Assembly: GCA_014727815.1 (NCBI GenBank) | Contig: WJMS01000015.1 | Location: forward strand, 1 to 52,076 | DNA from: a candidate division GN15 bacterium | GTDB taxonomy: Bacteria > Zixibacteria > MSB-5A5 > GN15 > FEB-12 | Reading direction: 5' to 3' | DNA: 52,076 nucleotides | Part shown: positions 6,237 through 45,848 of the stretch, one piece after another | How the letters are laid out: the number at the start of each line of letters is the position of its first letter | Numbering within the stretch: the stretch's first letter is position 1 | Notes under the pieces: model-generated | The model's input: the letters and a program-made list of their open reading frames with translations, nothing else | Told to the model about the DNA's origin: nothing | Database searches by the model: none | Made by a program: the position numbers and the translations under genes

Positions 6237-6265
6237 TTGACAGCATCGACTGTTTTGCCTACGAT
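6237..6265 (+). promoter_or_regulatory. Sigma70-like promoter TTGACA-N17-TACGAT
   Basis: Exact TTGACA at 6237-6242, 17-nt spacer, TACGAT at 6260-6265; upstream of the cytochrome operon. Confidence 0.5.
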
Positions 6266-6347
6266 AGTCGAAGACAACTCTCCAGCCATGTTTTGCCGCG
6301 GACATGCTGAGCATCAGCCGTTAACCCACCTGAAAGGAGCTTCAGGC

Positions 6348-7748
6348 ATGGCAAGCATTTCCCCTCCCAACCAGGACAGCAGACGTGTGTTTCCCCGGGG
6401 TATCTGGGCTGCCGTCGTTATGTGCATGGTATGTCTCGCAATTGTCGCCGTTGGCGTGTATGCGAGCGACGGCGCGCCGGCGGCGGGAACGTATTCGTAC
6501 GATGAGTTTGAGACCCCGGAGTTTTGTGGGACCTCGTGCCACACCGATCTCTATGTCCAGTGGACGCAGGCGATGATGTCGCATGCGTATACGCACCATT
6601 GGGATGAGATCGAGTACTTTGAACTGGCGGTCCCGCATGCCGAGAAGGACGAGAAAGTGGCTGAGGTGAAGGCCGGTTGCAACGGTTGCCACTCGCCGCT
6701 GGCCTATCTCAATGGTGGTTTTCCGCCGCCGCGGCCGGCTGAAAACAGCCGGGCGAACGAGAGTGTTTCCTGCGAGGTCTGCCACAATATCACCGGCATT
6801 ACACAGGATACGGCGTACAATTTCAACTTTGTCTGGGATCCGGGTGACACCAAGTACGGTCCCCGCGCCACCGGCGAGTCGCCGGCGCACGAGATGGCCA
6901 AGTCGGAGTTTTTGGCGACGACCGAGCTGTGTGGCGGGTGTCACAATGAGAAGAGTCCCTACGGCGTGTGGGTGAAGTCGACGCAGCTGGAGTGGCTTGA
7001 GGGGCCGTACGCCGAGGAAGATGTGCGCTGTCACGACTGCCATATGACGTACGGCAAGATGGCGACCGCGTCGATGGGACCGGTGTATGATGATGCCCGG
7101 CTGCACCTTTTTCACGGCGCCCATGACAAGGGCAAGCTGCGGGGAGTGGTTGAGATCCGCCTCTACCCGGATATCCAGGAAGCCGTTCCGGGAGACCGGG
7201 TGAAGTTCACGGTGACCCTGTTCAATCAGAAGACCGGTCACAAATTCCCGACCGGGTCGGTTGAAGACCGGCTTGTCTGGCTGCATCTGGAGGCGACGGA
7301 CGCCGACGGCACCGTTTACCATCTGCCGGTCGACAAGAAGGGTTTCGAGGGCGAAGAGTATACGATTGGTGACTCGGTGCTGGCCTACCAGGATATGGGA
7401 ATTGCTCTCGATCGGCCGAATTTCGAGGGCGTCCAGCGTGACGGGATTCCGGTTGGGGATCGCATATTCCGCATGCCGTATTTCGATCCGCAGGGTCGGA
7501 TGACGATTCAGCAGTGGAACACGGCGTCGCTGGGGGTAGACTACCGCTTCGCACCGCGCGAGACCAAGGTGGAGACCTACACGTTTGATATCCCCTTCGA
7601 GGTCCCTGCCGGCGAGTTGACGGTGACCGCGAAGCTCAACTACCAGTTGCTGGTCAAACCGGTTGCGGACTTCCTCGATGTACCTGCCGAGGAGTCTGAG
7701 CCGTTTGTCGTGAATGAACAATCGACCACCCTGACTATCTTGCCGTAA
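6348..7748 (+). CDS. Multiheme c-type cytochrome (cytochrome c554-like)
   Basis: Start trimmed to ATG 6348 (aaaggag RBS). N-terminal TM/signal. Heme motifs CGTSCH (CX3CH), CNGCH, CEVCH, CGGCH, CHDCH. C-terminal beta-rich region with TGHKFPTG. Confidence 0.85.
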   Translation: MASISPPNQDSRRVFPRGIWAAVVMCMVCLAIVAVGVYASDGAPAAGTYSYDEFETPEFCGTSCHTDLYVQWTQAMMSHAYTHHWDEIEYFELAVPHAEKDEKVAEVKAGCNGCHSPLAYLNGGFPPPRPAENSRANESVSCEVCHNITGITQDTAYNFNFVWDPGDTKYGPRATGESPAHEMAKSEFLATTELCGGCHNEKSPYGVWVKSTQLEWLEGPYAEEDVRCHDCHMTYGKMATASMGPVYDDARLHLFHGAHDKGKLRGVVEIRLYPDIQEAVPGDRVKFTVTLFNQKTGHKFPTGSVEDRLVWLHLEATDADGTVYHLPVDKKGFEGEEYTIGDSVLAYQDMGIALDRPNFEGVQRDGIPVGDRIFRMPYFDPQGRMTIQQWNTASLGVDYRFAPRETKVETYTFDIPFEVPAGELTVTAKLNYQLLVKPVADFLDVPAEESEPFVVNEQSTTLTILP

Positions 7749-7763
7749 CGGGAGGCTGCATAC

Positions 7764-8951
7764 ATGAAGAAGACGATAGCTATATCATCGATCGCCGGCG
7801 CGCTGCTGCTGGCCCTCAGTCTGGCTTTGCTGACACCGCCGCAGTCGGCGCAGGCGATTCCGGCCTTTGCACGAAAGTACCGGATGTCCTGCACGACCTG
7901 TCACGCGCCGTTCCCGAAGCTGAAGGCGTACGGGGATGAGTTCGCCGGAGACGGGTTCGTGTTGAAAGATCAGGATGCCCCGCGTTATTATGTCGAAACC
8001 GGTGATGAAAACCTGGATTTGATTCGCGACCTGCAGGCGGCTTTCCGACTGGAAGGTTTCGTCAAACACGAGACAAAGACCGATCAGGATGTGGACTTCA
8101 CGGCACCCTATAACCTGAAGTTCCTGTCGGGTGGAGCGTTGTCCGACCACCTGGCCTATTACTTCTACTTTTTCTTCAGCGAGCGCGGCGAGGTCGCGGG
8201 GATCGAGGACGCCTTCGTGATGTTCAACGACGTTTTCAATACCGAACTGGACATCTATCTCGGTCAGTACCAGGTTTCCGACCCGTTGTTCAAGCGCGAA
8301 CTTCGCCTGACCTATCAGGACTACCAGGTGTATCGGATGACACCCGGGGATTCGCGAGTTAATTTGACCTACGATCGGGGTGTAATGATGACCTGGGGGT
8401 TCGCCAACGGCCCGGGTTTCGTTTTCCAGATCCTCAACGGAAACGGTATCGGGGAGGCCAACGAGTTCCGGGTGTATGACGACGACAAGTACAAGAATTT
8501 CGCTTTGCATGCGTCGCAGGATGTCGGCGAGTTCGTCAATGTCGGCCTGTTCGGTTACTACGGCAAGGAGGCGGAGTCCGGGTACAAGAACGAGATGTGG
8601 ATGCTGGGACCGAATGGGACGATCGGCAACGACAAGATCGAGTTAAACGGTCAGTACATGCTTCGCCGCGACGACAATCCCTGGTTCACCGCCACCAAGC
8701 CATCGGATGAGATCGAGACGCAGGGTGGACTGGCCGAGGTTGTGTATATGCCGGACGGCGATCGCAGCACGTGGTACCTCACGGGGCTGTACAACTGGGT
8801 GGATTCCGACGATGACCTGGAAGACTACGAGGCCGTGACGGCCCATGTCGGCTGGGTGCTTCGCACCAATTTCCGGCTGATTGCCGAGAACACCTATGAT
8901 ATCGAACAGGAAGAGAACCAGTTCGTGGTCGGATTCATTTCGGCCTTTTGA
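7764..8951 (+). CDS. Monoheme cytochrome - outer-membrane beta-barrel fusion (Cyc2-like architecture)
   Basis: Signal peptide; AIPAFARKYRMSCTTCHAPFPKLKAYGDEF with one CXXCH; remainder has alternating beta-strand pattern and a terminal Phe (FVVGFISAF*). Confidence 0.7.
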   Translation: MKKTIAISSIAGALLLALSLALLTPPQSAQAIPAFARKYRMSCTTCHAPFPKLKAYGDEFAGDGFVLKDQDAPRYYVETGDENLDLIRDLQAAFRLEGFVKHETKTDQDVDFTAPYNLKFLSGGALSDHLAYYFYFFFSERGEVAGIEDAFVMFNDVFNTELDIYLGQYQVSDPLFKRELRLTYQDYQVYRMTPGDSRVNLTYDRGVMMTWGFANGPGFVFQILNGNGIGEANEFRVYDDDKYKNFALHASQDVGEFVNVGLFGYYGKEAESGYKNEMWMLGPNGTIGNDKIELNGQYMLRRDDNPWFTATKPSDEIETQGGLAEVVYMPDGDRSTWYLTGLYNWVDSDDDLEDYEAVTAHVGWVLRTNFRLIAENTYDIEQEENQFVVGFISAF

Positions 8952-16569: not shown

Positions 16570-16924
16570 GCCATGCCCTCCACGCGCTTATCATATTCCA
16601 CAGTTCGCTTCGCGGTGCAGCCGGATCGAGTCACTATCCGGCGGCGTGCGATCGGCGTTCGCCGACAGCTAGGTCAATCATCGTTCATGGAGAGGTTGCT
16701 GAGATGAGCCCTGGTCGGCAGTCAGGCGGACCCCGGTGAAGCCAAGGTCGACCAATCTCAAGGCGACACCGACACTCGATATATCTAATAGAGCGACCTT
16801 CGGTCTTCGGAGGAACCAACGATTGCCCTGTTATGTCCATAACAACCATCGGCTTGAATTGTTCGAAGGCAAAATGGCGAAAACAATCGGCCGGGGGTAC
16901 TGTTGTAGTGGAGAGAGGGCGGTT

Positions 16925-17527
16925 ATGGCAAAGAAACTCTCGGAATACTCCAAAAAGCGCGATCTGCGCAAGTCTCCCGAGCCGAAAGCCGGTCGCAAGA
17001 AAGGTAAAGGCAAGCGTATCTTCGTGATTCAAAAGCACGATGCCAGTACGCTGCACTATGATTTCCGCCTGGAGATCGATGGTGTGTTGAAATCGTGGGC
17101 GTTGCCGAAGGGTCCGTCGACAGATCCGTCGGACAAGCGACTGGCCATCAACACCGAGGACCACCCGTACGCATACAAGGACTTCGAAGGCGTCATACCT
17201 GAAGGTGAATACGGCGCCGGGGCGGTGCTGGTGTGGGACACCGGCACCTACGAGAATATCAAGAAAGAGAACGGCCGGACAGTGGCGATGCAGAAGTGTT
17301 TCGATCGCGGCCATATAGAGATCCGGCTCGAGGGCCAGAAACTGTCCGGCGGGTTCGTGTTGACCAAACTCAAAAAGGGCAAGAAGGACCAGTGGCTCTT
17401 CATCAAAATGAAGGATGACGCGGCCGATGCCCGGCGCAATCCGGTGAGCACCGAACCGCGATCAGTTCTGAGCGGTCGGACGATCCTGGAGATCGAGAAG
17501 AGTGATGAGCAAGATCCTGACCAGTAG
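16925..17527 (+). CDS. DNA ligase D 3'-phosphoesterase (PE) domain protein, stand-alone
   Basis: FVIQKHDASTLHYDFRLEIDGVLKSWALPKGPSTDPSDKRLAINTEDHPYAYKDFEGVIPEGEYGAGAVLVWDTGTY; start trimmed to ATG 16925. Confidence 0.93.
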   Translation: MAKKLSEYSKKRDLRKSPEPKAGRKKGKGKRIFVIQKHDASTLHYDFRLEIDGVLKSWALPKGPSTDPSDKRLAINTEDHPYAYKDFEGVIPEGEYGAGAVLVWDTGTYENIKKENGRTVAMQKCFDRGHIEIRLEGQKLSGGFVLTKLKKGKKDQWLFIKMKDDAADARRNPVSTEPRSVLSGRTILEIEKSDEQDPDQ

Positions 17528-18506
17528 TCAACGTGATGCAGCACGCCGGGGGGCCCAGCCAACGTTCATGTCGCCGATGCTTGCGCGGCTTACCAGGAAG
17601 CGCTTTTCCGACGACGGCTGGATCTACGAACGCAAGCTCGACGGTGAGCGCTGCCTGGCCGTGGTCAAAGGGGGAACCGTCAGTCTGTTCTCTCGAAATC
17701 GGCGCAATCTCAGCCCAGTTTATCCGGAGATAGTCGACCAGCTCGATGAAGATGGCGCGACCGGTTACATTGTGGATGGTGAAATTGTCGCGTTCAGTGG
17801 CAACCGCACGAGCTTCTCCCGCCTGCAGCAGCGCATGGGCATTGAGGATCCCGATGAAGCGCGTTCCAGCCCGGTCGCCGTCTACTACTACGTGTTTGAC
17901 GTCATGTTTGCCGACGGGCATGATCTTTGCGGCTTGCCGTTAGCGGAACGCAAGCGGGTTTTGAAGAAACTGCTCGCGTTCAGCAATCGGGTTCGCTGGA
18001 CGCCCTACCGGCGAGGCGATGGTGAGGCGTACTATCACGAGGCGTGTCGCAAGGGCTGGGAAGGGGTCATTGCCAAGCGGCTCGACGCATCTTATAGACA
18101 CAGTCGCAGTTCCGACTGGCTGAAATTCAAGTGCGTCAACCAGCAGGAGTTGGTCATCGGTGGTTACACCGACCCGGAAGGCTCGCGAATCGGGTTTGGC
18201 GCGCTGCTGGTGGGCTATTACGAGAAAGGCGAGCTGCGTTATGCCGGGAAGGTCGGCACCGGGTACGACGAAGAGACGCTGCGGTCACTGACGGAGAAGC
18301 TGACACGGCACGAGCGCAAGAGTTGTCCATTCGCCAATTCCGACGAGATCAAGGAACGGCGGCCGCACTGGGTCTCTCCCAAGCTGGTGGGACAGTTTGG
18401 TTTCACCGAGTGGACCGGTGACGGCAAGCTTCGCCATCCGCGTTTCCTCGGGCTCAGACAGGATAAGCCGCCCAAGCAGGTCAGGCGCGAGCAGTCGAAG
18501 GGGTGA
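17502..18506 (+). CDS. ligD: ATP-dependent DNA ligase (LigD ligase domain), stand-alone
   Basis: Adenylation motif YERKLDGERCLA (KxDG); VDGEIVAF; GWEGVIAKRLDASYRHSRSSDWLKFKC; VGKVGTGYDEETL-type OB region. Alternative ATG at 17505. Confidence 0.93.
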   Translation: MMSKILTSSQRDAARRGAQPTFMSPMLARLTRKRFSDDGWIYERKLDGERCLAVVKGGTVSLFSRNRRNLSPVYPEIVDQLDEDGATGYIVDGEIVAFSGNRTSFSRLQQRMGIEDPDEARSSPVAVYYYVFDVMFADGHDLCGLPLAERKRVLKKLLAFSNRVRWTPYRRGDGEAYYHEACRKGWEGVIAKRLDASYRHSRSSDWLKFKCVNQQELVIGGYTDPEGSRIGFGALLVGYYEKGELRYAGKVGTGYDEETLRSLTEKLTRHERKSCPFANSDEIKERRPHWVSPKLVGQFGFTEWTGDGKLRHPRFLGLRQDKPPKQVRREQSKG

Positions 18507-18508
18507 GT

Positions 18509-19417
18509 ATGAAGGTCGGTTCGCACACCATCGAGCTTTCAAACGAAGACAAGGTGCTGTTTCCGGACAGCGGGATAACGAAGGGACAGTTGATCGACTA
18601 TTACGCTCGCATCGCCGAGACGATGCTGCCGTACCTGGAGGATCGGCCACTGTCCTTGCAGCGTTTTCCCGACGGCATCGACGGCGATGGATTCTATCAG
18701 AAGCAAGTATCGGATTACTTCCCCGACTGGATAAGTCGCATCGAGATTGACGTTGAGGGTGGGCAAAAGACGCAGGTTGTGTGTAACGAGGCGGCAACGC
18801 TGGTGTATCTGGCCAACCAGGCCTGTATCACACCGCATTCATGGCTGAGCCGCCGGGACAAGCTGAATCAGCCGGACCTGATGGTGTTTGATATCGATCC
18901 GCCCACGGATGATTTTGAGCCGGTCCGGGATGCGACGCGCACCCTGTGCGAGTTGCTCGATGACCTGGAACTGCCCTGCTTCCTGCAGACGACCGGTTCA
19001 AAGGGGATACATATAGCGGTGCCGTTGAAGCGCCATCAGGACTTCGACGAGGTGCGTGCCTTCGCACGGGACATAGCTGATTTGCTGGCAAAGCGACATC
19101 CCAAACAGCTGACGGTGGAGCAGCGTAAGGATAAGCGGGGCGACCGGGTGTTTCTCGATACAAACCGCAATGCTTACGGTCAGACGATGGTCACGCCGTA
19201 TTCGGTGCGGCCGCGGCCGGGCGCACCGGTGGCGACACCGATCGAGCGGGACGAACTGGACGATGGAGCCCTGCGGTCCGACCGTTACACGATCAGCAGC
19301 ATCTTTCGTCGGCTGGGCCAGCGCATGGATCCCTGGGGCGGGTTGCGCAAGCATGCGGTTACGCTGTCATCGTCACGAGACAGGCTGGCAGACATAAAGA
19401 AGGCCGACTCGAGATGA
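18509..19417 (+). CDS. Non-homologous end-joining polymerase/primase (LigD Pol domain), stand-alone
   Basis: QKQVSDYFPDWI, WLSRRDKLNQPDLMVFDIDPP (DxD), TTGSKGIHIAVPL, TPYSVRPRPGAPVATPI. GTG at 18503 overlaps the ligase TGA; ATG at 18509. Confidence 0.93.
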   Translation: MKVGSHTIELSNEDKVLFPDSGITKGQLIDYYARIAETMLPYLEDRPLSLQRFPDGIDGDGFYQKQVSDYFPDWISRIEIDVEGGQKTQVVCNEAATLVYLANQACITPHSWLSRRDKLNQPDLMVFDIDPPTDDFEPVRDATRTLCELLDDLELPCFLQTTGSKGIHIAVPLKRHQDFDEVRAFARDIADLLAKRHPKQLTVEQRKDKRGDRVFLDTNRNAYGQTMVTPYSVRPRPGAPVATPIERDELDDGALRSDRYTISSIFRRLGQRMDPWGGLRKHAVTLSSSRDRLADIKKADSR

Positions 19418-33899: not shown

Positions 33900-34475
33900 T
33901 CAGGTTTCGCCGGTACTGCGACGCTGCAGGACCTGGACGGTAGTGGCTTTGGGGCCTTTGTCACCCTGCTCTTCGACATAACGCACGCCGTTACCCACAT
34001 CGAGGTCCTCAAAGGCCTCGTTGACAACGCTGTTTCGGTGGAAATAGATTCGGCGGCCGTCGACGGTTTCCAGGAAACCATAGCCGCCATCGACATCAAT
34101 CTCGCTGATGATGGCGGTGACCTCCTGCTGCGGGTGCGATTTGGTTTCATCGCGCTGGCGTTCGACCAGTTCCTTGAGCCGACGTCGAGCCGCATCGAAG
34201 GCATCGCGAATGACACCCGACAGGGGCGCATGCATGTCGGCCTCGCCGGGTTCTTTGGTCACCACCAGTTCATGTCCCGGCGGGACTCGCACCTCAATTC
34301 GTACCCGATGCAGGTTGCCGCTCTGCTGGTGACGCTGCGGGCGTTCGACACTCACCCGGCAACTGGTGATGTAGTCACACACCTGTTCGAGCTTGCCGAC
34401 TTTTTCGTGGATGAGAGCTTCGATGTCGGGGCTCTTGGCCACATCTCGAAACGATAATTCCAGTGGGACTTGCAT
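33900..34475 (-). CDS. HPF/RaiA (S30AE) ribosome-hibernation domain fused to a cold-shock-like domain
   Basis: N-terminal S30AE-like (MQVPLELSFRDVAKSPDIEALIHEKVGKLE...), C-terminal GYGFLETVDGRRIYFHRNSVVNEAFEDLDVGNGVRYVEEQGDKGPKA. Confidence 0.88.
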   Translation of the reverse strand: MQVPLELSFRDVAKSPDIEALIHEKVGKLEQVCDYITSCRVSVERPQRHQQSGNLHRVRIEVRVPPGHELVVTKEPGEADMHAPLSGVIRDAFDAARRRLKELVERQRDETKSHPQQEVTAIISEIDVDGGYGFLETVDGRRIYFHRNSVVNEAFEDLDVGNGVRYVEEQGDKGPKATTVQVLQRRSTGET

Positions 34476-34706
34476 ACTGTCACCTCCATGGCCAACCGAT
34501 GCCGTCGAGGCATCGACTCCGACGGGCATTGTCTGCAGTGACCGCCGGTCGGTCGGCGTTGAATTCTACGTGTGCCGGGAAACGAGTACTGCGAAGACGT
34601 GCGAGGATACGGTCAGCGCCGCCGGATGGCGGAGCCCGGCCTATCTATTCGTATAACAAGGAATCGACGTTGACGTTTCGGCAAATCTGCATTCGTTGTA
34701 ACAGAA

Positions 34707-36137
34707 CTACAGGGTGAGGACCAATCGCCGGATCAGCAGCAGCAGCTGATCGGGATAGACCCCGAGGTAGATTGTCGCTGCGGCCAGCAGGCCGAGCAGC
34801 GTCGCTCCCGAGAGTGAGACTGTGGGCGTCGAGGCAGCAGGCGTGTCGCGACGGGCGTACATGACAGCCATGATACGGAAGTAGTAGTAGATGCCGATCA
34901 GGCTGGCGATTGCCAGCACCACTACCAGCACCCAGTGGGCGGCAGCAACACCGGCCAGGACCAGATAGAACTTGCCGACAAATCCGGCCGTGACGGGAAT
35001 CCCCGCCAGGGACAGAAGGAGTATGGTGAAGATGATCGCCAGTCGGGGGCGCTGCCAGAACAGGCCGCGGAAGTCTTCGAGAGACATCCGTTCCCTGCCT
35101 TCGGGTGAAATCAAGCTGATTATGCCGAATGAGCCCAGGACAGCCAGAGAGTAGACGATCAGGTAGTAGGCGACGGCTTCGAGGGCGCGATCTCCTCCGG
35201 CGATGAAGGCGACCAGCATGTAGCCGAGATGAGCGATCGAGGAATAAGCCAGGATGCGTTTGACGTTTTCCTGGATGAGCGCCAGGATGTTTCCGATCAG
35301 CATCGAGGCTATCGCGATCACGGCCAGGGCGATCATGACCGTGTCGAATTGATATCCATCGGTGACAAAGAAGTACCGCAGCAAGAGTGCGAACACGGCG
35401 CTTTTGGAGACACTGGCCACAAAGGCGGTGACGGGAGCCGGGGCGCCGGTGTAGACATCGGGTGTCCAGACATGGAACGGTACGATAGCGAGTTTGAAAC
35501 CGATGCCGACCAGCATAAGGGCGGTCGCGACCAGTACGATGGGGGTCGACAGATCTTCGGCGGCGGCGAGTGCATCGGCCAGCGGGCCAAACTGCATCGT
35601 CCCGAACTCCGCGTAGATCAGCGCCATGCCGAACAGCAGGAAAGCTGATGATGCAGCCGCGAGGATGAGATACTTCACCCCCGCTTCAAGGGCGGCAAGT
35701 TCCTCGGTCAGATAGGCAATCATGACATAGAGTGAGACCGAGAGAATCTCGAGACCGAGGAAGAATGTAACGAAATGACTGGCGGCGGTGAGGACCATCG
35801 AACCGAGCGTGGCCAGCAGCAGGACTATATAGAATTCCTCGCGCTGTTCGTTGCGGCGACGCAGGTAGGCGTAGCCGAGGACGGCGGTGACGATAGCGGC
35901 GGCGATGATCAGGCCCATGAAGAACTGCGCGAACCCATCCATCACCAGCAGCACGCCAACTGATTGCGGCAGCAGCGGGCCGACACCAATCACTGCGATG
36001 AAGGCAGCGATGAGACCGACTATGGTCAGTCCGAGAGCAACCGCATGACGGCGTGTGATGGCGGCCTGCAGCAGGACGACGATCGATGTTATAGCGACAA
36101 TGATGACCGGCCAGAGGGCCTGATATTCTATATCCAT
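34707..36137 (-). CDS. nuoN: NADH-quinone oxidoreductase subunit N
   Basis: NuoN-type antiporter: KYLILAAASSAFLLFGMALIYAEFGT, FKLAIVPFHVWTPDVYTGAPAPVTAFVASVSKSAVFALLLR, ILAYSSIAHLGYML. Confidence 0.95.
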   Translation of the reverse strand: MDIEYQALWPVIIVAITSIVVLLQAAITRRHAVALGLTIVGLIAAFIAVIGVGPLLPQSVGVLLVMDGFAQFFMGLIIAAAIVTAVLGYAYLRRRNEQREEFYIVLLLATLGSMVLTAASHFVTFFLGLEILSVSLYVMIAYLTEELAALEAGVKYLILAAASSAFLLFGMALIYAEFGTMQFGPLADALAAAEDLSTPIVLVATALMLVGIGFKLAIVPFHVWTPDVYTGAPAPVTAFVASVSKSAVFALLLRYFFVTDGYQFDTVMIALAVIAIASMLIGNILALIQENVKRILAYSSIAHLGYMLVAFIAGGDRALEAVAYYLIVYSLAVLGSFGIISLISPEGRERMSLEDFRGLFWQRPRLAIIFTILLLSLAGIPVTAGFVGKFYLVLAGVAAAHWVLVVVLAIASLIGIYYYFRIMAVMYARRDTPAASTPTVSLSGATLLGLLAAATIYLGVYPDQLLLLIRRLVLTL

Positions 36138-36144
36138 GTCACTG

Positions 36145-36453
36145 CTACCCCTTCAAGAGACTGGCCAGATCGATATCGAGCGTCTGGAGGCGCTTGTAGA
36201 TTTGCAGAACGAGGGCCAGGCCGATAGCGACTTCAGCGGCTGCCATGGCGAGAATGAAAACGAACATGACCTGACCATCGGCCTGTCCCCACCGGGCGCC
36301 GGCGGCGACAAAGGCCAATCCGGCGGCGTTGAGCATGATTTCAAGGCTCATGAGGATGAAGATCACGTTGCGGCGGACGAGCAGCCCGATCACACCCAGG
36401 GAGAAGAGAATGCCGGCCAGCAGCAGTCCATGTTCGAGCGGAATGGCGGCCAT
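36145..36453 (-). CDS. nuoK: NADH-quinone oxidoreductase subunit K
   Basis: [37 protein letters not shown]. Confidence 0.95.
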
Positions 36454-36454
36454 A

Positions 36455-37027
36455 CTACGAGTCCTCCCCTACGGTGACGTTCGGCGACGATTCGGTGTCT
36501 GCAGCTTGGGTGGTCGTATCGGTTCCGTGCTCACGGCGTTCGCGGCGGCGCCCGAGATGGAAGGCGCCGACCAGACCGGCCAGCAGCAGCATGCCGGCAA
36601 GTTCCACGCCGAGTACATACGTGGTAAAAAGGCTGATACCTACTTCCCTGGGAGCGACGACAGTCGGCGAATAGACGGTAGCCAGGCCTTGGTTGATCAT
36701 GTAGACAAGTTCAATCAACAAGACCAGTGACAGAACAGCGGGCCCGATGTACATGCGGGGATTGAGCCACTGCCGCTCCTGCTGTGCCGATTCGGGACCG
36801 AGATTGAGCAGCATCATGACGAATACAAACAGCACCATGATGGCGCCGGCATAGATGATGATCTCGAGCACGGCGACAAACGGCGCGCCGAGACAGAAGA
36901 AGATGACGGCTACCGACAACAGCGATACGATCAGGTACAACAGGGCATGTACGGCCTGGGTGCGAGTGATGACCATGATCGTGGCGGCGATTGCGACTGC
37001 CGACGCTATGTAGAATGCGGTTACCAT
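36455..37027 (-). CDS. nuoJ: NADH-quinone oxidoreductase subunit J
   Basis: [49 protein letters not shown]. Confidence 0.95.
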
Positions 37028-37045
37028 GCCGTACGCATTAACTCC

Positions 37046-37576
37046 TCAGGGCAACAGGCTCCGGATATCAACGGGTTTGTCTTCGTTCTCCGCCTCTCCC
37101 TTGTCTTTGCCGCCGATCTTGAGGCCGGCTACCTTATAGAAGTGGTAGCCGGGGTATTTCCCCTGCCCTTCGATTTGCAGGTGTTCCTTTTCGTAGACCA
37201 GGTTATTGCGATGATACTCGGCCATCTCGAAATCAGGTGTGAGCTGGATCGCGTAGGTGGGGCAGGCTTCCTCACACAACCCACAGTAAATGCAGCGGGA
37301 GAAGTTGATGCGGAAGAAGTCCGGGTAGCGCCGGCCATGCTCGTCCTCGGTGGCCTGCAGGGCGATACAGTCGACCGGGCAGACAACGGCACAGAGATAG
37401 CAGGCCACACACCGCTCGCCGCCATCGGGGTCCTTCGAGAGGATGATCCGCCCGCGGTAGCGAGGCGCCAGGTAGGGCTTTTCATCCGGGTACTGGACTG
37501 TCTCACGGCGACGGAACATGTGTTTAAACACGATCCACAGACTTCGTATGCTGCTAAACATGTATGCTCCTGACAA
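37046..37576 (-). CDS. nuoI: NADH-quinone oxidoreductase subunit I
   Basis: Two 4Fe-4S motifs: [16 protein letters not shown] and [16 protein letters not shown]. Confidence 0.95.
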
Positions 37577-37587
37577 TTCTCATAGCT

Positions 37588-38532
37588 CTACAATACAACG
37601 ATCGCTCCGGTGACCAGTAAATTGGCCAGGGCCAGCGGAAGCATCACCTTCCACCCGTACGACATGAGCTGGTCGAAGCGCGGCCGGGGCAGCCCGGCGC
37701 GCAGCAGGATGAAGAAGCAGACCAGGGCGAAGGTCTTGAGGCCGAACCAGACGATCGGCGGCAGCCAGGGACCGTGCCAGCCGCCGAGAAAGAGGGTCGT
37801 GGTGATGGCTGCAACGACTACCATTCCGAGGTACTCGCCGACGAAGAACATGCCGAACTTCAGGCCGGAGTATTCCGAGTGAAAGCCGGCGACGATTTCA
37901 CTTTCCGCCTCGGGGATGTCAAAGGGCAGCCGGTGCATTTCCGCGACGCCGGCGACCAGAAAGACGACAAAACCAAAAAACTGCGGGACGATATTCCACA
38001 TCCCCTGCTGGGCCATGACGATGTCCCACATGCTGAACGAGCCGGTCATGACGACCACGCCCATCAACGACAGACCCATGAAGACTTCGTAGCTGATCAT
38101 CTGCGAGGCCGCTCGCAGGCCGCCGAGCAGTGAATACTTGTTGTTGGAGGACCAGCCTCCCAGCACGACGCTGTAGGCGCCAAGTGATGACATCGCGAGG
38201 AAAAAGAGCAGGCCGACATTCAGGTCGACCACCCCGATACCGGGGGCGACCGGGACGACCGCGAACGACATGAGCACGGTGAAGATGATCACGCCCGGTG
38301 CGATGACAAAGACGGGGCGGTCGGCAAACGGTGGTATCCAGTCTTCCTTGGTGAGGATCTTTACCATGTCGGCGATGACCTGGAAGATGCCGAACGGCCC
38401 GACGCGGTTGGGGCCGTAGCGATCCTGCCACAGGCCGAGCAATCGCCGCTCGAGCCAGATCAGGCCGGGAGCTGCGGTGAAGACGCCGAGCAGGACGAGT
38501 ATCGCGAGAAGTGCCGATCCCTGAAAGCTCAC
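37588..38532 (-). CDS. nuoH: NADH-quinone oxidoreductase subunit H
   Basis: [75 protein letters not shown]. Confidence 0.96.
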
Positions 38533-41234
38533 GACGTCACTCCTCTGGCGATCTCTACGGATGCGTTCGGGTCGATACCAACGAAGGGGCCGAGACCGAT
38601 CGGGATGCCGATCGTGCCGGTCGGGAGATCATCGCGCACGACTGCTTTCGCCTGAAACTCTCGGTTGCCTATTGTGAGGCTCAACATGTCACCCTCGGAA
38701 ACTTCATGGGACTCTCTGTCGGCTGACGGAATTGCAATGTATGGCTCAGGCATGCGTGTAGCGAGGGCGGCGGCGCGGGAACTGAGTTCTTCACTGCCAT
38801 ATATATGATACATGGGAACGATGCTCGGTTTGTTCCCCGATGAGTCGGTTTTTGGTTCCGGCTGGAAGTATGACCGTGCGGCATCTGGTCTTGGTTCGAT
38901 CAATCGCAGGCCGGGATCACCGCCGCGCAGCGGTCCGCCGACCTCGGCCTGGTATTTCGCAGTTGCCTGTACCGAGTTCCACCCCGGCGCCCAGAAGAAG
39001 GGAATCAGCGACGACGGTGGTTTGCCGTGGTACCCTTCCATCGAAAATGCAAGCGGTGAATCCGGATCGGTTTTCGGCTGCGGTTCATGCACATTGATAT
39101 GCGCGGTCATGGCCGTACGCCCGCTGTAGCGGTGCGAGGCACGCGGTATGCGCTGGTGCACGAGCCGGAAACGTGCGCCGGGGGCGATCCTGAGGCGGTC
39201 GCCGAAGGCCGGGAACGTATCAAACAGCTGCGAGCAGATGTCGTCGAGAGTAGTGCCGTTTCGTCGGTTTGCACCGGCGAGGGCCAACAGACGCCGCCAG
39301 CTTTCCTCGGGCGCTTTGCCGGGACTGAGCACCTGGTAGAAACGCTGGGCGCGCCCCTCGTTGTTGACCAGAGTGCCGTCACCTTCAGTGAAGGCGGCTA
39401 CGGGGATGACAACGTCAGCCTGTCCGGTTGTATCAGTCATGATGTGATCGAGTGCGATTATTCGCTTACACCGGTTCAGCGCGGAGTCGACAGTCGCGCG
39501 ATCGATGCGTCGGTACAGGTCGTTTTCGAGGATAACGAGGGTGTCGATGTCACCGCGTGTGATCTTCTCGAATGCTTCATCTACTGACGGGGCATCAAGA
39601 AAGCTCACACCGAGGCTGTTGGTTTCAGGGAGCACAAACGCAAGTTCCGCCGCATTGCCCTCCTTGCAGAGTGCGAAGGCGGTGTTGGCGGCAGCGTGAA
39701 TGAGATGACGGCTGCCGAGGCTCGTGCCGGAGATGACCACAGGACGGTCGGCCTCACGCAGGGCTTCAGCGGCCGCTTCGACGAAGGCCAATGTTTCGTC
39801 GGAGAGACCCGCCACTGCCGGCGCCTTATCGTCAAGGGTAGCTGCAATGGCAAAGCCGATGCGGGTGATGTCCTCGGCGGATGCACGCAGCGCACGGGTA
39901 GAAAACTTGTCAAGCTTGGTTCGAGTGGGCGTGGCGACGAAACACGGGCCGCGCTCGCCCTGCATGAGTTCGCGCACGGCGGCATCATGCCAGTGATCGA
40001 CACCGATCTTCTTCGCGTTGTGCGCCGGTTTGGTCATGCCGGCCTGCCGCACGGCGAGGTCAAGCATGGGCGCAGTGTTGGTCAGGTCTTCACCGAGAAT
40101 GAGGACGACATCGGCCTGCTCCACATCATGCAGGGAGGCCGATCGGGCCGGACCGTTGCGCAGGACTGTCAGGACTTCATCGGTGAGTGTCTTCTGCCGT
40201 TCACTATCGCCCGAATAGAAGTTGTCCTGCCCCACCAGTTCGCGCAGCGCGAAGTTGGCCTCGAGGCTGGCCCGCGGCGAGCCGATACCGGCAATGCCCT
40301 TGGCTTCTCCAAGACTCTTGCGGGCGGCATCGAGCGCGGCATTATCATCGACCTGTTCGAAATCGCTGCTGCGATCGGTGCGGCTCAGGGCGTTCGTGAT
40401 TCGATCCGGACTGTTGACGAACTCATAGCCAAAGCGGCCTCGGTCGCACATGAAGTAACCGTTGACTTCGCGGTTGTATCGATTGAGCACGCGGACGACT
40501 TTGTCATAGCGTGAGCCGGGGATGATATTGCAGCCGAGGCTGCACTGGTGACAAACCGACGGCGCCGTCTGCAGGTCCCACTTGCGGGCGTAGTGTTGTT
40601 TCAGGGTCTTGTCGGTAAACACGCCGGTCGGGCAGACTTCGACAAGATTGCCGCTGAACTCGCTTTCGAGCGGGCCGTCTTCGTATCGGCCGAAATAGAC
40701 ATGATCGTGGGCGGCGAAGGCCTGGAGGTCGTCACCGCCGGCGAAGTCGTGGTAGAAGCGGACGCACCGGTAGCAGGCAATGCAGCGGTTCATCTCATGA
40801 TTGATAAACGGTCCGAGATCCTGGTTGCGGTGGGTGCGCTTCTTGAACCGGAACTCGCGATAGGTGTGACCGGTCATGACGGTCATATCCTGCAGGTGAC
40901 ACTCGCCGCCTTCGTCGCAGACCGGGCAGTCGTGCGGATGGTTGACCATGAGCCACTCGATGACGCTCTTGCGGAATTCTTCCGCCTGGCGCGCTTTGAT
41001 CGATATACGCGTCCCCTCGGTAGCCGGCACCATGCATGCCATCGCCAGCTTGCCCTTCTCATCGTTTTCGTCTTTGTACTGCATCACGGCACACTGGCGA
41101 CAGGCGCCGACCGACCCGAAGGCCGGATGCCAGCAGAAGTAGGGCAGGTCGAAGCCGAGTGAGAGGGCCACCTGCAGCATGTTCTGACCATCGGCTACTT
41201 CAAACTTCTTGCCGTCTATGTACACGTAGGGCAT
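38529..41234 (-). CDS. nuoG: NADH-quinone oxidoreductase subunit G
   Basis: N-terminal 2Fe-2S and His-ligated cluster motifs ([19 protein letters not shown]), [10 protein letters not shown], extra CHQCSLGCN...C (N7-type), molybdopterin-like C-terminal region. Confidence 0.94.
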
Positions 41235-41240
41235 GATGTC

Positions 41241-42530
41241 TTATCTCCAGGGGCACTTTTTGTCTTTGATGTGCCGTTCGAAATCGTCACGAAAGTACTT
41301 CAATCCGCTCTGCAACGGTTCAACCGCACCGGGCGCCAGCGCACAGAACGTGTTGCCCGGGCCGAGCCAGGTGCAGTGGGCTTCGAGTCGGTCGAGATCG
41401 GCCGGCTCTCCCTCACCCTCTTCGATGGCGTGCAGGAGCTTCTCGGTCCAGGGCAGACCGTCGCGGCAGGGCGTGCACCAGCCGCACGATTCCTGGGCGA
41501 AGAAGTGTTCGAGATTTTCGAGCATGCCGACCGGGCAGGTCCGGTCATCGAGAATGATGATGGTGCCGGTGCCAAGACGTGAGCCGATCTTCATGATCTC
41601 GCCGTAGTCCATGGGGACGTCGAGGTGTTCGTCGATCATGAAATCAGTCGAGGCGCCGCCGGGCAGCATACCTCTGAAGCGATAGCCATCTTTCATGCCG
41701 CCGGCATGTTCTTCGATAATCTCGCGCGCGGTGGTACCCATCGGCAGTTCCCAGGCGCCGGGACGGTTGACCCGACCGCTGACACCGTAGATTTTGGTGC
41801 CGCCATCATCGGTCTTACTCAGCCCCCTGAACCAGTCGGCGCCGTTGTTGATGATGTGCTGCACGTTGCAAAGTGTCTCGACATTCTGTACGATGGTCGG
41901 CTTGCCCCACAGGCCACTGGCTTGCGGAAAAGGTGGCTTGGCTCTGGGGGTGGCGCGTTTGCCTTCCATGGCATTGAGCAGGCCGGTTTCTTCGCCGCAC
42001 ATGTATCGACCGGCGCTGACGTGTACGTACATATCGAGATTGAAACCGCTGCCCAGGATGTTCTTGCCGAGGTAGCCTTTCTCATAGGCCTCGGCGATTG
42101 CCTTCCGGAGCCGGCCGGCCGAGAGGTGATAGGCCCAGCGGATGAAGATATACGAGACCGATGCGCCGATGGCGTAGGCGGCACAGATCATGCCTTCGAT
42201 CAGCGAGTGCGGGTCGCCCTCCATGAGCAGTCGGTCCTTGAACGTGCCGGGTTCCATCTCGTCGGCGTTGGCGACGAGATACTTCGGCTGGGGAGCGTCA
42301 TCACCCATCGGCACAAAGCCCCATTTCATGCCGGTATTGAAGCCGGCGCCACCACGGCCTTTCAGGTTCGCTTCTTTCACGAGCGACTGGACATCCTTCG
42401 GCGACATATCGGAAAGCGCCTTGCGCACAGCCTGGTAGCCGCCGGCACGCTCGTACTCGTCGATAGTCATGGGCGTGCGATCATCGCGGATGTTCTTTGT
42501 GAGCGGCGTTTCCATACCCGTATCAGTCAT
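41241..42530 (-). CDS. nuoF: NADH-quinone oxidoreductase subunit F
   Basis: LKGRGGAGFNTGMKWGF, NADEMEPGTFKDRLLMEGDPHSLIEGM, ESCGWCTPCRDGLPW. Confidence 0.96.
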   Translation of the reverse strand: MTDTGMETPLTKNIRDDRTPMTIDEYERAGGYQAVRKALSDMSPKDVQSLVKEANLKGRGGAGFNTGMKWGFVPMGDDAPQPKYLVANADEMEPGTFKDRLLMEGDPHSLIEGMICAAYAIGASVSYIFIRWAYHLSAGRLRKAIAEAYEKGYLGKNILGSGFNLDMYVHVSAGRYMCGEETGLLNAMEGKRATPRAKPPFPQASGLWGKPTIVQNVETLCNVQHIINNGADWFRGLSKTDDGGTKIYGVSGRVNRPGAWELPMGTTAREIIEEHAGGMKDGYRFRGMLPGGASTDFMIDEHLDVPMDYGEIMKIGSRLGTGTIIILDDRTCPVGMLENLEHFFAQESCGWCTPCRDGLPWTEKLLHAIEEGEGEPADLDRLEAHCTWLGPGNTFCALAPGAVEPLQSGLKYFRDDFERHIKDKKCPWR

Positions 42531-42990
42531 ACTCCTTCAGGATGTCTTCAACTTTGTCCGGGGTGAGGTCGACATAGGTCGTTTCATCGATGATGAAGGC
42601 CGGGGCGTGGTCGCAGATACCAAGACACGGAATCGGCAGCAGCGTGAACTTGTTGTCCGGCGTCGTCTCGCCGGGGCGAATGCCGAGCTGCTTGTGCAGG
42701 TGTTCGAGAATTTCTTTGTAGCCGGTGATCCAGCAGCTGACGCTGTCGCAGATAAAGATCTTGTGTCGACCGACCGGCCGGCGGAAAATGAGGTTGTAGA
42801 AGGTCGCCACCGAATCGAGTTCATCGGGCGACATGTCGAGATACTCGGCCACATCGAGCAGGCCTTCATCGGTCACCCAGCCGTCGCGGTGTGCCTGGAC
42901 GATCTTGAGCGCACCGAGGCAGGCCGCCTGTTTGGTCGGCACGTGCGACAGTTCCTTGTCGATTTCCGCCTTTTCTTCCTGACTCAGCAT
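42523..42990 (-). CDS. nuoE: NADH-quinone oxidoreductase subunit E
   Basis: Thioredoxin-like 2Fe-2S protein: CDSVSCW...PCLGICDHAPAF. Confidence 0.95.
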   Translation of the reverse strand: MLSQEEKAEIDKELSHVPTKQAACLGALKIVQAHRDGWVTDEGLLDVAEYLDMSPDELDSVATFYNLIFRRPVGRHKIFICDSVSCWITGYKEILEHLHKQLGIRPGETTPDNKFTLLPIPCLGICDHAPAFIIDETTYVDLTPDKVEDILKEYD

Positions 42991-43020
42991 GTTCTTTTCA
43001 TCTCTATCCGTTCGTGTGCG

Positions 43021-44778
43021 TTACCGATCGACATCGGCAAGCACGAAATCTATACTCCCCAGTATCGCCAGCAGGTCGGCCACGGTGTGGCCGCGGCTGA
43101 TGGCCGGCACCATCTGAATGTGCGGAAACGAGGGCGCCCGGATGCGGGTGCGATATGACATGGTGCTGCCATCACTCACCAGATAGTAGCCGTTGTTGCC
43201 CTTCGACGCCTCGACCGCCGCAAACGCTTCGCCCGGCGGGATAACCGGCCCCCAGCTGACATTGAGGAAGTGTGTGATCAATGTCTCAATGTCATGCATG
43301 GTGCGGTCCTTGTTGGGCGGCGTGGTCAGTTTGTGCGATGATTTGTATGGTCCTGACGGCATGTTGTTCAGGCACTGTTCAATTATTCGCAGGCTCTGTC
43401 GCATTTCTTCGACCCGGACAATACCGCGATCGTAGCAGTCGCCGTTGTGGGCGATTGGGATGTCGAACTCGAATTGATCGTAGCCGGAGTACGGCCGTGT
43501 TTTGCGGAAGTCCCACTCGTAACCGGTGGCGCGCAAGCCGGGGCCGGTGACACCCCACTCGATCGCGGTGTCGGTGTCGTAGACGCCGATGCCTTTGGTG
43601 CGTCCCTTGAAGATGTGGTTTTTCATGACGAGGGAGTCGTATTCTTTCAAGCGGGCCGGCATGTAGTCCAGGAACTCCCGGACCAGCTTGTCCCAACCCT
43701 CAGGGAGATCATCGGCCACCCCACCGATACGAAACCAGTTGGGATGCATGCGGTCACCGCAGATGGCCTCGATGATCGTAAAGATGCGCTCGCGGTCGTT
43801 GAACATGTAGAAGACCGGTGACAGCGCGCCGACATCCTGGGCGAAGGTGCCGTACCAGACGAGATGACTGGCAATTCGGAAGAACTCGGCGAGCATGATG
43901 CGAATGACCTGCGCCCGCTCGGGGACGTCGATACCGGCGAGTTTCTCGACCGCCATGACGTAGGGGAAGTTGTTCATGACCCCGCCGAGGTAGTCGATGC
44001 GATCGGTGTACGGGATGTAGGAATGCCAGGACTGCCGCTCCCCCATCTTCTCGGCGCCGCGATGATGGAAGCCGATTTCGGGAACGGCGTCGACGATCTC
44101 TTCGCCATCGAGCTGCAGTATCACCCGCAGGACACCGTGCGTGCCGGGATGTTGGGGCCCGAGATTAAGAAAGATGAAATCGCTGTCTTCGCTTCGGCGC
44201 TTCATCCCCCAGTCCTCGGGGTTGAACTTGAATGCTTCCATCTCCCGGTCCTGGCGCTCATCGGGAAGTTCGAACGGCGGCATTTCGGTGGCACGGGCGG
44301 GGTGATCTTTGCGCAATGGGTAGCCTTCCCACGTGTGCGGCATGAGTATGCGCTGCAGGTGCGGGTGACCATCGAAGCGCACGCCAAACATATCGAAGAC
44401 CTCCCGTTCGTACCAGTCGGCGTTGGGGAATATTGTGCGTACGGTTGCGACGGTGGGGTCGGCTTCGGGCAAACCGACTTTCACCCGGATATCGTCGTTG
44501 CGGTCGAACGACAGCAAATGGTAGACGACCGAAAAGCGGTCGGTACCGGGTTGAACCGGGTGCTGGCGGGAGCCTTCGTCGATTGCGGTCAGGTCGTAGA
44601 GCATGCGATACGGCTGCTCGACTTCGGATTTCAAAAACGACAGTACCGGTTGCAGGGCCGAGCGGTCGATCCAGACGGTCGGGATCTGGTCGGTGGTCGG
44701 CTGCACCGAACGGAGATTGTCGCCGAACTTCTCGGTGAGCGTATCGACAATGGTGGCCGGGCGGGTATCGGTAGTCAT
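43021..44778 (-). CDS. nuoCD: NADH-quinone oxidoreductase fused subunit C/D
   Basis: N-terminal NuoC ([36 protein letters not shown]) fused to NuoD ([44 protein letters not shown]). Confidence 0.96.
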
Positions 44779-44790
44779 TCGTACGGTCCC

Positions 44791-45435
44791 CTACACACCA
44801 TCGGGGGTTCGCAGGTCACCGGTCTGGCGACGGCGTTCCTGTTTGAGATCACGCAGAGCGGGGCGCTGGGCTTTTTCCACACCGGAGGGACCGATCGCCC
44901 AGCTCAGGGGACGGCGTTCCCGCCCGGCCGCCTCACTCATGAGGACCAGGCCTTCCATAAATGTCTCGGGGCGCGGCGGACAGCCGGGGACATAGAGGTC
45001 GACCGGCATGAACTTGTCGACACCCTGGACGACGCTGTAGATGTCGTACATGCCGCCGGAGTTGGCGCACGAACCCATGGAGATGACCCAGCGGGGTTCC
45101 ATCATCTGGTCGTAGAGGCGGCGGATGATCGGCGCCATCTTGAGAAAGACGGTGCCGGCGATCACCATGACATCGGCCTCGCGCGGCGTGCCGCGAATGA
45201 CTTCGGCGCCAAAACGGGCAATATCGTGACGGCTGGTCAGGCTGGTAGCCATTTCGACATAGCAGCAGGAGAGACCGAAATTGAACGGCCAGAGCGAGTT
45301 TTTGCGTCCCCACGCAAGCAGGTCCTGCAGTCGGGCGAGCATGACGTTTTTCTGGACGGTCTTTTCAAAGGAGTCGGAGACCAGCTCGACAGTGTGTTTT
45401 TCGCCCTTCGCCGTGAATCGTTTGAAGCCGCGCAT
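44791..45435 (-). CDS. nuoB: NADH-quinone oxidoreductase subunit B
   Basis: [57 protein letters not shown]; start trimmed to 45435 (TAATG overlap with nuoA). Confidence 0.96.
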
Positions 45436-45848
45436 TATCGTGATCCCCGTCTGGCCGGTTTGCGGAGAAAGTCGAGCGCGCCCATGCGCCATTCATAGAT
45501 CAAGCCGGCGGTCAGGATACCGGCAAATATGAGCATGGCCAGATAGCCCGGCCAGCCGAGGTCCTTGCCGGCGACGGCCCAGGCAAAGAGGAAGACGACT
45601 TCGAGATCGAAGATCACGAAAAGCATCGCGACCAGATAGAACTGTGCGGAGAAACGTACGCGTGCGCCGCCGGTCGAGGTGATCCCGGACTCGTAGGGAA
45701 GATTGGTTTCGCGGTCCTGGTGTCGCTGGCCGAGCAGCCAGGACAACAGGTACATGGCGCCGAGGATGACGAGAGCGCCGATGGTGTAGACGAGAAGGGG
45801 AAAGACGTCCGATGTCATAGGCGAGGTGGTAATTGGCGCGACCATCAT
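45435..45848 (-). CDS. nuoA: NADH-quinone oxidoreductase subunit A
   Basis: [44 protein letters not shown]; alternative start at 45818. Confidence 0.95.

Follow-up and report, generated by a model that had tools for sequence, protein, structure and literature searches.

The 52,076-bp contig analysed here (WJMS01000015.1; the window, or C77) comes from a metagenome-assembled genome (MAG) of the Zixibacteria phylum (G000; 3.7 Mb in 364 contigs, 92.6% complete, 3.97% contamination) and carries an Escherichia coli-type complex I operon that lacks nuoL and nuoM. The genes nuoA-B-CD-E-F-G-H-I-J-K-N form an intact operon on the minus strand, from 45848 to 34707, in which nuoN follows nuoK directly. 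This K-N operon is genuine and recurs elsewhere, as a variant of complex I gene content that seems not to have been described before but does not constitute a new enzyme class. Judging from genes alone, we lean towards a chimeric enzyme, in which an E. coli-type core (A-K and N) would take its distal L and M, in trans, from a 14-subunit complex I of the same cell.

The operon is of the E. coli type (E-type below), with a fused nuoCD, a 901-aa NuoG and top scores to the corresponding NCBIfam subfamilies. All eleven open reading frames (ORFs) of the operon were confirmed; the scan with family profiles took in ten of them (B, CD, E-K and N), and NuoA was assigned by similarity. The nuoA ORF (45435..45848, 137 aa) gives 39-68% matches to NuoA of many other nuo loci. 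nuoB (44791..45492) scores 218 bits with TIGR01957 (cut-off 142.7); its ORF overlaps nuoA, and its true start probably lies downstream of 45492. The fused nuoCD (43021..44778) scores 1043 bits with PRK11742 NuoC/D. The NADH-oxidising module is present, with nuoE (42523..42990, TIGR01958), nuoF (41241..42530, TIGR01959) and nuoG (38529..41234, TIGR01973, 624 bits) all above the NCBIfam cut-offs. nuoH (37588..38532, PRK06076.1-1, 499 bits), nuoI (37046..37576, PRK05888.1-1 and TIGR01971), nuoJ (36455..37027, PRK06638.1-1, 238 bits) and nuoK (36145..36453, PRK05715.1-1) likewise exceed their cut-offs, and nuoN (34707..36137, 476 aa) scores 389 bits with TIGR01770 (cut-off 332.6). The genes for the quinone site and the proximal membrane arm (B, CD, H, I, A, J, K, N) are present too, with conserved channel residues. 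Alignment to E. coli NuoK shows that both membrane channel glutamates (E36 and E72) are kept, and NuoN keeps E133, K217, K247 and K395 (E. coli numbering).

In place of nuoL-nuoM there are 7 nt (36138..36144), and the sequence just before them, GAAGGGG, could plausibly serve as a ribosome-binding site; equivalent junctions occur in five other genomes. The antiporter-like domain shared by L, M and N (PF00361) has a single match on the whole contig, nuoN. Because the operon lies well inside the contig, the absence of nuoL and nuoM is no contig-edge effect. A first, sequence-only reading of the window had described nuoA to nuoK plus nuoN in canonical order, nuoN 7 nt after nuoK, and no L or M; the ORFs and family scores, the sequence of the junction and the PF00361 scan bear out each of these points. 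The operon thus departs from an E-type complex I (NDH-1) in having one of the three antiporter-like subunits (L, M, N) of such a cluster and no L to carry the lateral helix. It resembles a complex with a shared distal module, of the kind of cyanobacterial NDH-1M, in that N is the sole antiporter-like subunit encoded with the core and M and L are encoded elsewhere.

The rest of the MAG encodes two further complex I sets. C43 carries a complete A-B-C-D-E-F-G-H-I-J-K-L-M-N operon of 14 subunits (14-type). C132 starts with L-M-N and C351 ends with A-B-C-D-H-I-J-K; these are halves of one 11-subunit cluster, the H-N part of which is contiguous in a genome of the same genus (G002; 66-93% identity), and this rules out that the window operon and C132/C351 are a single split cluster. 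The MAG has three nuoK, two nuoL and two nuoM genes. Its seven PF00361 genes are the L-M-N of C43, the L-M-N of C132 and the nuoN of the window, with no spare L-M pair among them. Homologues of L and M were thus found in the bin, all of them within the C43 and C132/C351 complexes, and no separate E-type pair; trees of L and M show no E-type member from this MAG.

The same arrangement recurs in other genomes, nearly all of those compared being draft MAGs like this one. A public scan of 85,000 genomes with NuoCD yielded 80 loci, among them 51 E-type loci in which K is followed directly by L (48) or N (3); the K-N arrangement is rare, and more than chance. The three K-N genomes (G061, G062, G063) belong to the Chloroflexi (Anaerolineae), and two further ones (G439 and G067, the latter with an apparent near copy, G590) bring the number of Anaerolineae with K-N adjacency in an E-type complex to five. 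The nearest Zixibacteria relative (L049) keeps K-L-M-N, with 66-82% identity to the window per subunit (75% for NuoCD) except NuoG and NuoN (57% each). E-type NuoN was found in only a handful of genomes in two samples (396 and 400) taken around G061 and G062.

Phylogenetic analysis indicates that the K-N state arose more than once. In a tree of the concatenated core proteins (A, B, CD, E-K; ~3,080 columns), the window groups with L049, which keeps L-M-N (100% support in the Shimodaira-Hasegawa-like approximate likelihood ratio test), and the Chloroflexi K-N cores occupy at least two other places. The K-N label requires five changes on this tree, four of them forced by well-supported branches. 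Monophyly of the K-N complexes is rejected by the core proteins (approximately unbiased test, p 3e-8) and by NuoN (p 6e-4), whose tree agrees with that of the core in placing the window NuoN as sister to that of L049 (100/99). Across the K-N genomes L and M are always gone together and N is never lost. Since most operons have K-L-M-N, the likeliest history is one of several independent joint losses of L and M, with N being kept.

The question is then which L and M these genomes encode. All E-type L and M in the trees come from operons with L-M, and none from the six K-N genomes. Every L and M found in those six belongs to a 14-subunit complex, an 11-subunit complex or a 2M complex (one with an extra NuoM, see below), or to an orphan 14-type pair. 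14-type L and M are present in 6/6. In four genomes (G000, G063, G067 and G439) they lie within a 14-subunit complex, the cluster of G063 being split between two contig ends, and no orphan pair was found. In the other two (G061 and G062) they occur solely as a stand-alone nuoL-nuoM pair beside glyS-dnaG-rpoD, well inside a contig (L167:7068-10901 and L169:7932-11682). The rest of the 14-type complex was not found in either genome: no 14-type K or N was detected, and the K and N genes outside the K-N operon are those of the 2M complex or of Mrp-like clusters. Both L and M trees place the orphan genes firmly inside the Anaerolineae 14-type clade. A shared origin of the two pairs is rejected by the NuoL tree (p 0.009), in which they are not sisters, and this conflicts with their common neighbourhood.

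According to the chimera proposal, the operon products would form the NADH-oxidising arm, the quinone site and the proximal membrane arm of an E. coli-type complex I, and M and L of the coexisting 14-subunit complex (C43 in the present MAG) would dock onto this core. The operon's own M and L could have been lost because 14-type M and L can, as proposed, dock there. The chimera would then pump at normal or near-normal stoichiometry, two catalytic cores would draw on one pool of distal modules, and after a later loss of the 14-type core its L-M would have to stay. Physical docking, stoichiometry and any regulatory function of such sharing are inferred; the orphan 14-type pairs lend indirect support to an assembly of M and L from a separate locus on the core. 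The sequence-only reading had offered relocation or sharing of L and M as one possibility, and the orphan pairs speak for the sharing; all the L and M found in the K-N genomes are non-E-type, which speaks against simple relocation of the operon's own pair. As donor, C43 is likelier than the 11-subunit complex because its L helix is similar in length to that of E-type L: the lateral-helix span is 93 residues in C43 NuoL, 91 in E-type NuoL and 118 in 11-subunit NuoL. K395 of NuoN is the hand-over point to M, as established from E. coli and Thermus structures. In the NuoN of all six K-N complexes every charged residue that was checked, K395 included, is intact.

Several observations weigh against the chimera. 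Since the 14-type complex is widespread among Anaerolineae in any case, its co-occurrence with K-N says little by itself. Orphan pairs occur in 2/6 K-N genomes and in 0/13 comparison genomes without K-N (ten Anaerolineae controls plus G303, G427 and G850), a difference that is suggestive only (Fisher p ~0.09), and such pairs might also be what is left of a 14-subunit complex in decay. The lateral-helix region of most 14-type NuoL from Anaerolineae, at 125-132 residues, is longer than that of E-type NuoL. No shift of K-N NuoN towards 14-type NuoN is detectable (3 columns towards, 1 away). The draft state of nearly all the genomes counts on this side as well. Changes in NuoN that are specific to K-N complexes were also sought, with no signal in either direction.

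The chimera has a precedent in cyanobacteria, where the NDH-1M core accepts alternative NdhD/NdhF modules to give NDH-1L, NDH-1MS and NDH-1MS' (PMC9283085). That core, like the window operon, is without M- and L-type subunits, which are separate exchangeable modules (PMC9283085). However, cyanobacteria lack NuoEFG and draw on several dedicated NdhD/NdhF sets, whereas the supposed donor here is a complete second complex I with a proposed docking.

Alternatively, the products of A-K and N may work alone, as a reduced complex I with NuoN as its sole antiporter-like pump, no M, L or lateral helix, and ~2 H+/2e-. This would be a natural, repeatedly evolved, NADH-driven one-antiporter enzyme with about half the usual proton stoichiometry, and we regard it as possible but rather unlikely. 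Such an enzyme would be useful where the driving force is small. In its favour, the loss is repeated, and the operon is complete and conserved except for L-M, with all pump residues of N kept. There is also an experimental parallel: the nb8mΔ subcomplex of Yarrowia lipolytica, which lacks the same subunits (ND4 and ND5), is stable and active and pumps 1.8-2.1 H+/2e- (PMC3160329), although it results from a laboratory gene deletion and the state of the window is genome-encoded. This alternative leaves unexplained why the two K-N genomes without a 14-subunit core keep precisely 14-type L-M. Moreover, K395 is invariant and NuoN is not more variable in K-N complexes. The one-antiporter complex suggested by the sequence-only reading is consistent with the N-only operon; the orphan pairs and the unrelaxed NuoN count against it.

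Simple relocation, with an E-type L-M pair elsewhere in the chromosome and absent from the 92.6%-complete bin, is improbable. The bin is incomplete and divided into 364 contigs, and G061 and G062 do carry relocated L-M pairs; these known pairs, however, are of the 14-subunit and not the E-type, and an E-type pair would have to have been missed in all six K-N genomes. It is less probable still that the operon is a redundant third complex I in the course of being lost, either non-functional or serving only as a peripheral NADH dehydrogenase module. The bin does have two other complex I sets, and the E-type complex is rare in Zixibacteria (4/132 genomes, the other three all in one other family). 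Against such decay, the eleven genes are full length with the checked channel residues intact, gene order has survived deep divergence (core end branch 0.31-0.34), and other lineages show the K-N state too.

Finally, it is hardly credible that the contig comes from another organism, or that K and N were falsely joined. The bin has some contamination, and none of the 29 flanking genes of the window has a close orthologue in ~1.6 Mb sampled from two genomes of the same genus (0/29), which also suggests that the flanking region is accessory. However, the tetranucleotide profile of the window fits 60 segments of G002 (mean r 0.88-0.92) no less closely than those of the bin contigs C43, C132 and C351 (0.89-0.91), with a GC content of 59.3% against 58.8%, and its operon core groups with Zixibacteria relatives. 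The K-N junctions of the six genomes are unlike one another in sequence and spacing, which excludes an assembly artefact common to them; an assembly error at 36137-36145, about which the sequence-only reading had been concerned, is unlikely because the same junction, with other sequence, is found in five other assemblies.

The E. coli-type 13-gene operon (A-B-CD-E-F-G-H-I-J-K-L-M-N) is like the window operon in gene order, CD fusion and family scores and differs from it in having L and M. Two other known systems were considered and rejected. The 2M complex I, with its extra NuoM, is represented by cluster 2 of Chloroflexus aurantiacus (PMC3150298; the term "2M" is from PMC12342949). It is similar to the window operon in that the number of distal pump subunits varies, and it is found in the same Anaerolineae genomes, as K-L-M-M-N clusters (L166, L179 and L269) whose second NuoM lies on a very long branch of the NuoM tree. 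Its lateral helix, reportedly lengthened according to the original paper, is also lengthened in the NuoL comparison here. The 2M complex thus adds a subunit and lengthens the helix, whereas the window operon loses subunits; having no M or L at all, it has no extra M. Rhizobial plasmid nuo clusters are no precedent either, as they carry extra antiporter genes. In Sinorhizobium meliloti pB (L215:10207-26832) and in L216 the order is permuted to J-K-antiporter D-small protein-antiporter D-M-N-A-B-C-D-E-F-G, with I and H reversed and a small uncharacterised protein between the additional antiporter-like subunits.

Reading of the sequence alone suggests three further features of the window. Directly downstream of nuoN (33900-34529) lies an ORF for a ribosome-hibernation-factor-like protein with an apparent fusion to a cold-shock-like domain (GYGFLE...IYFHRNSV). 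Three consecutive ORFs at 16736-19417 resemble separate LigD domains (3'-phosphoesterase, ATP-dependent ligase and primase/polymerase). At 6237-8951 a multihaem cytochrome c-like protein precedes a second exported protein, one that has a CxxCH motif, and the two are possibly an electron-transfer pair.

A search of the open-access literature brought up no description of a nuo operon that lacks L and M in this way, which is no proof of novelty. A survey of complex I published in 2025 counts 2,171 species whose sets are incomplete; its main text leaves such cases unresolved, and Candidatus genomes are excluded from it (PMC12361115). Clusters like this one are filed by annotation pipelines under that class, 'incomplete complex I', a label to be read with caution. 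That just the two distal subunits were lost, jointly and independently of lineage, marks the N-M interface as a natural module boundary. Complex I is usually viewed as a unit inherited in one piece, with pump subunits that form a set. If the chimera is correct, a module would be exchangeable between two complex I of one cell, apparently for the first time outside the cyanobacterial line, as far as we have found; if the enzyme is reduced, a truncated pump would be a viable natural enzyme. Under either reading, the contribution of the distal pumps, a long-standing question, becomes testable in natural enzymes.

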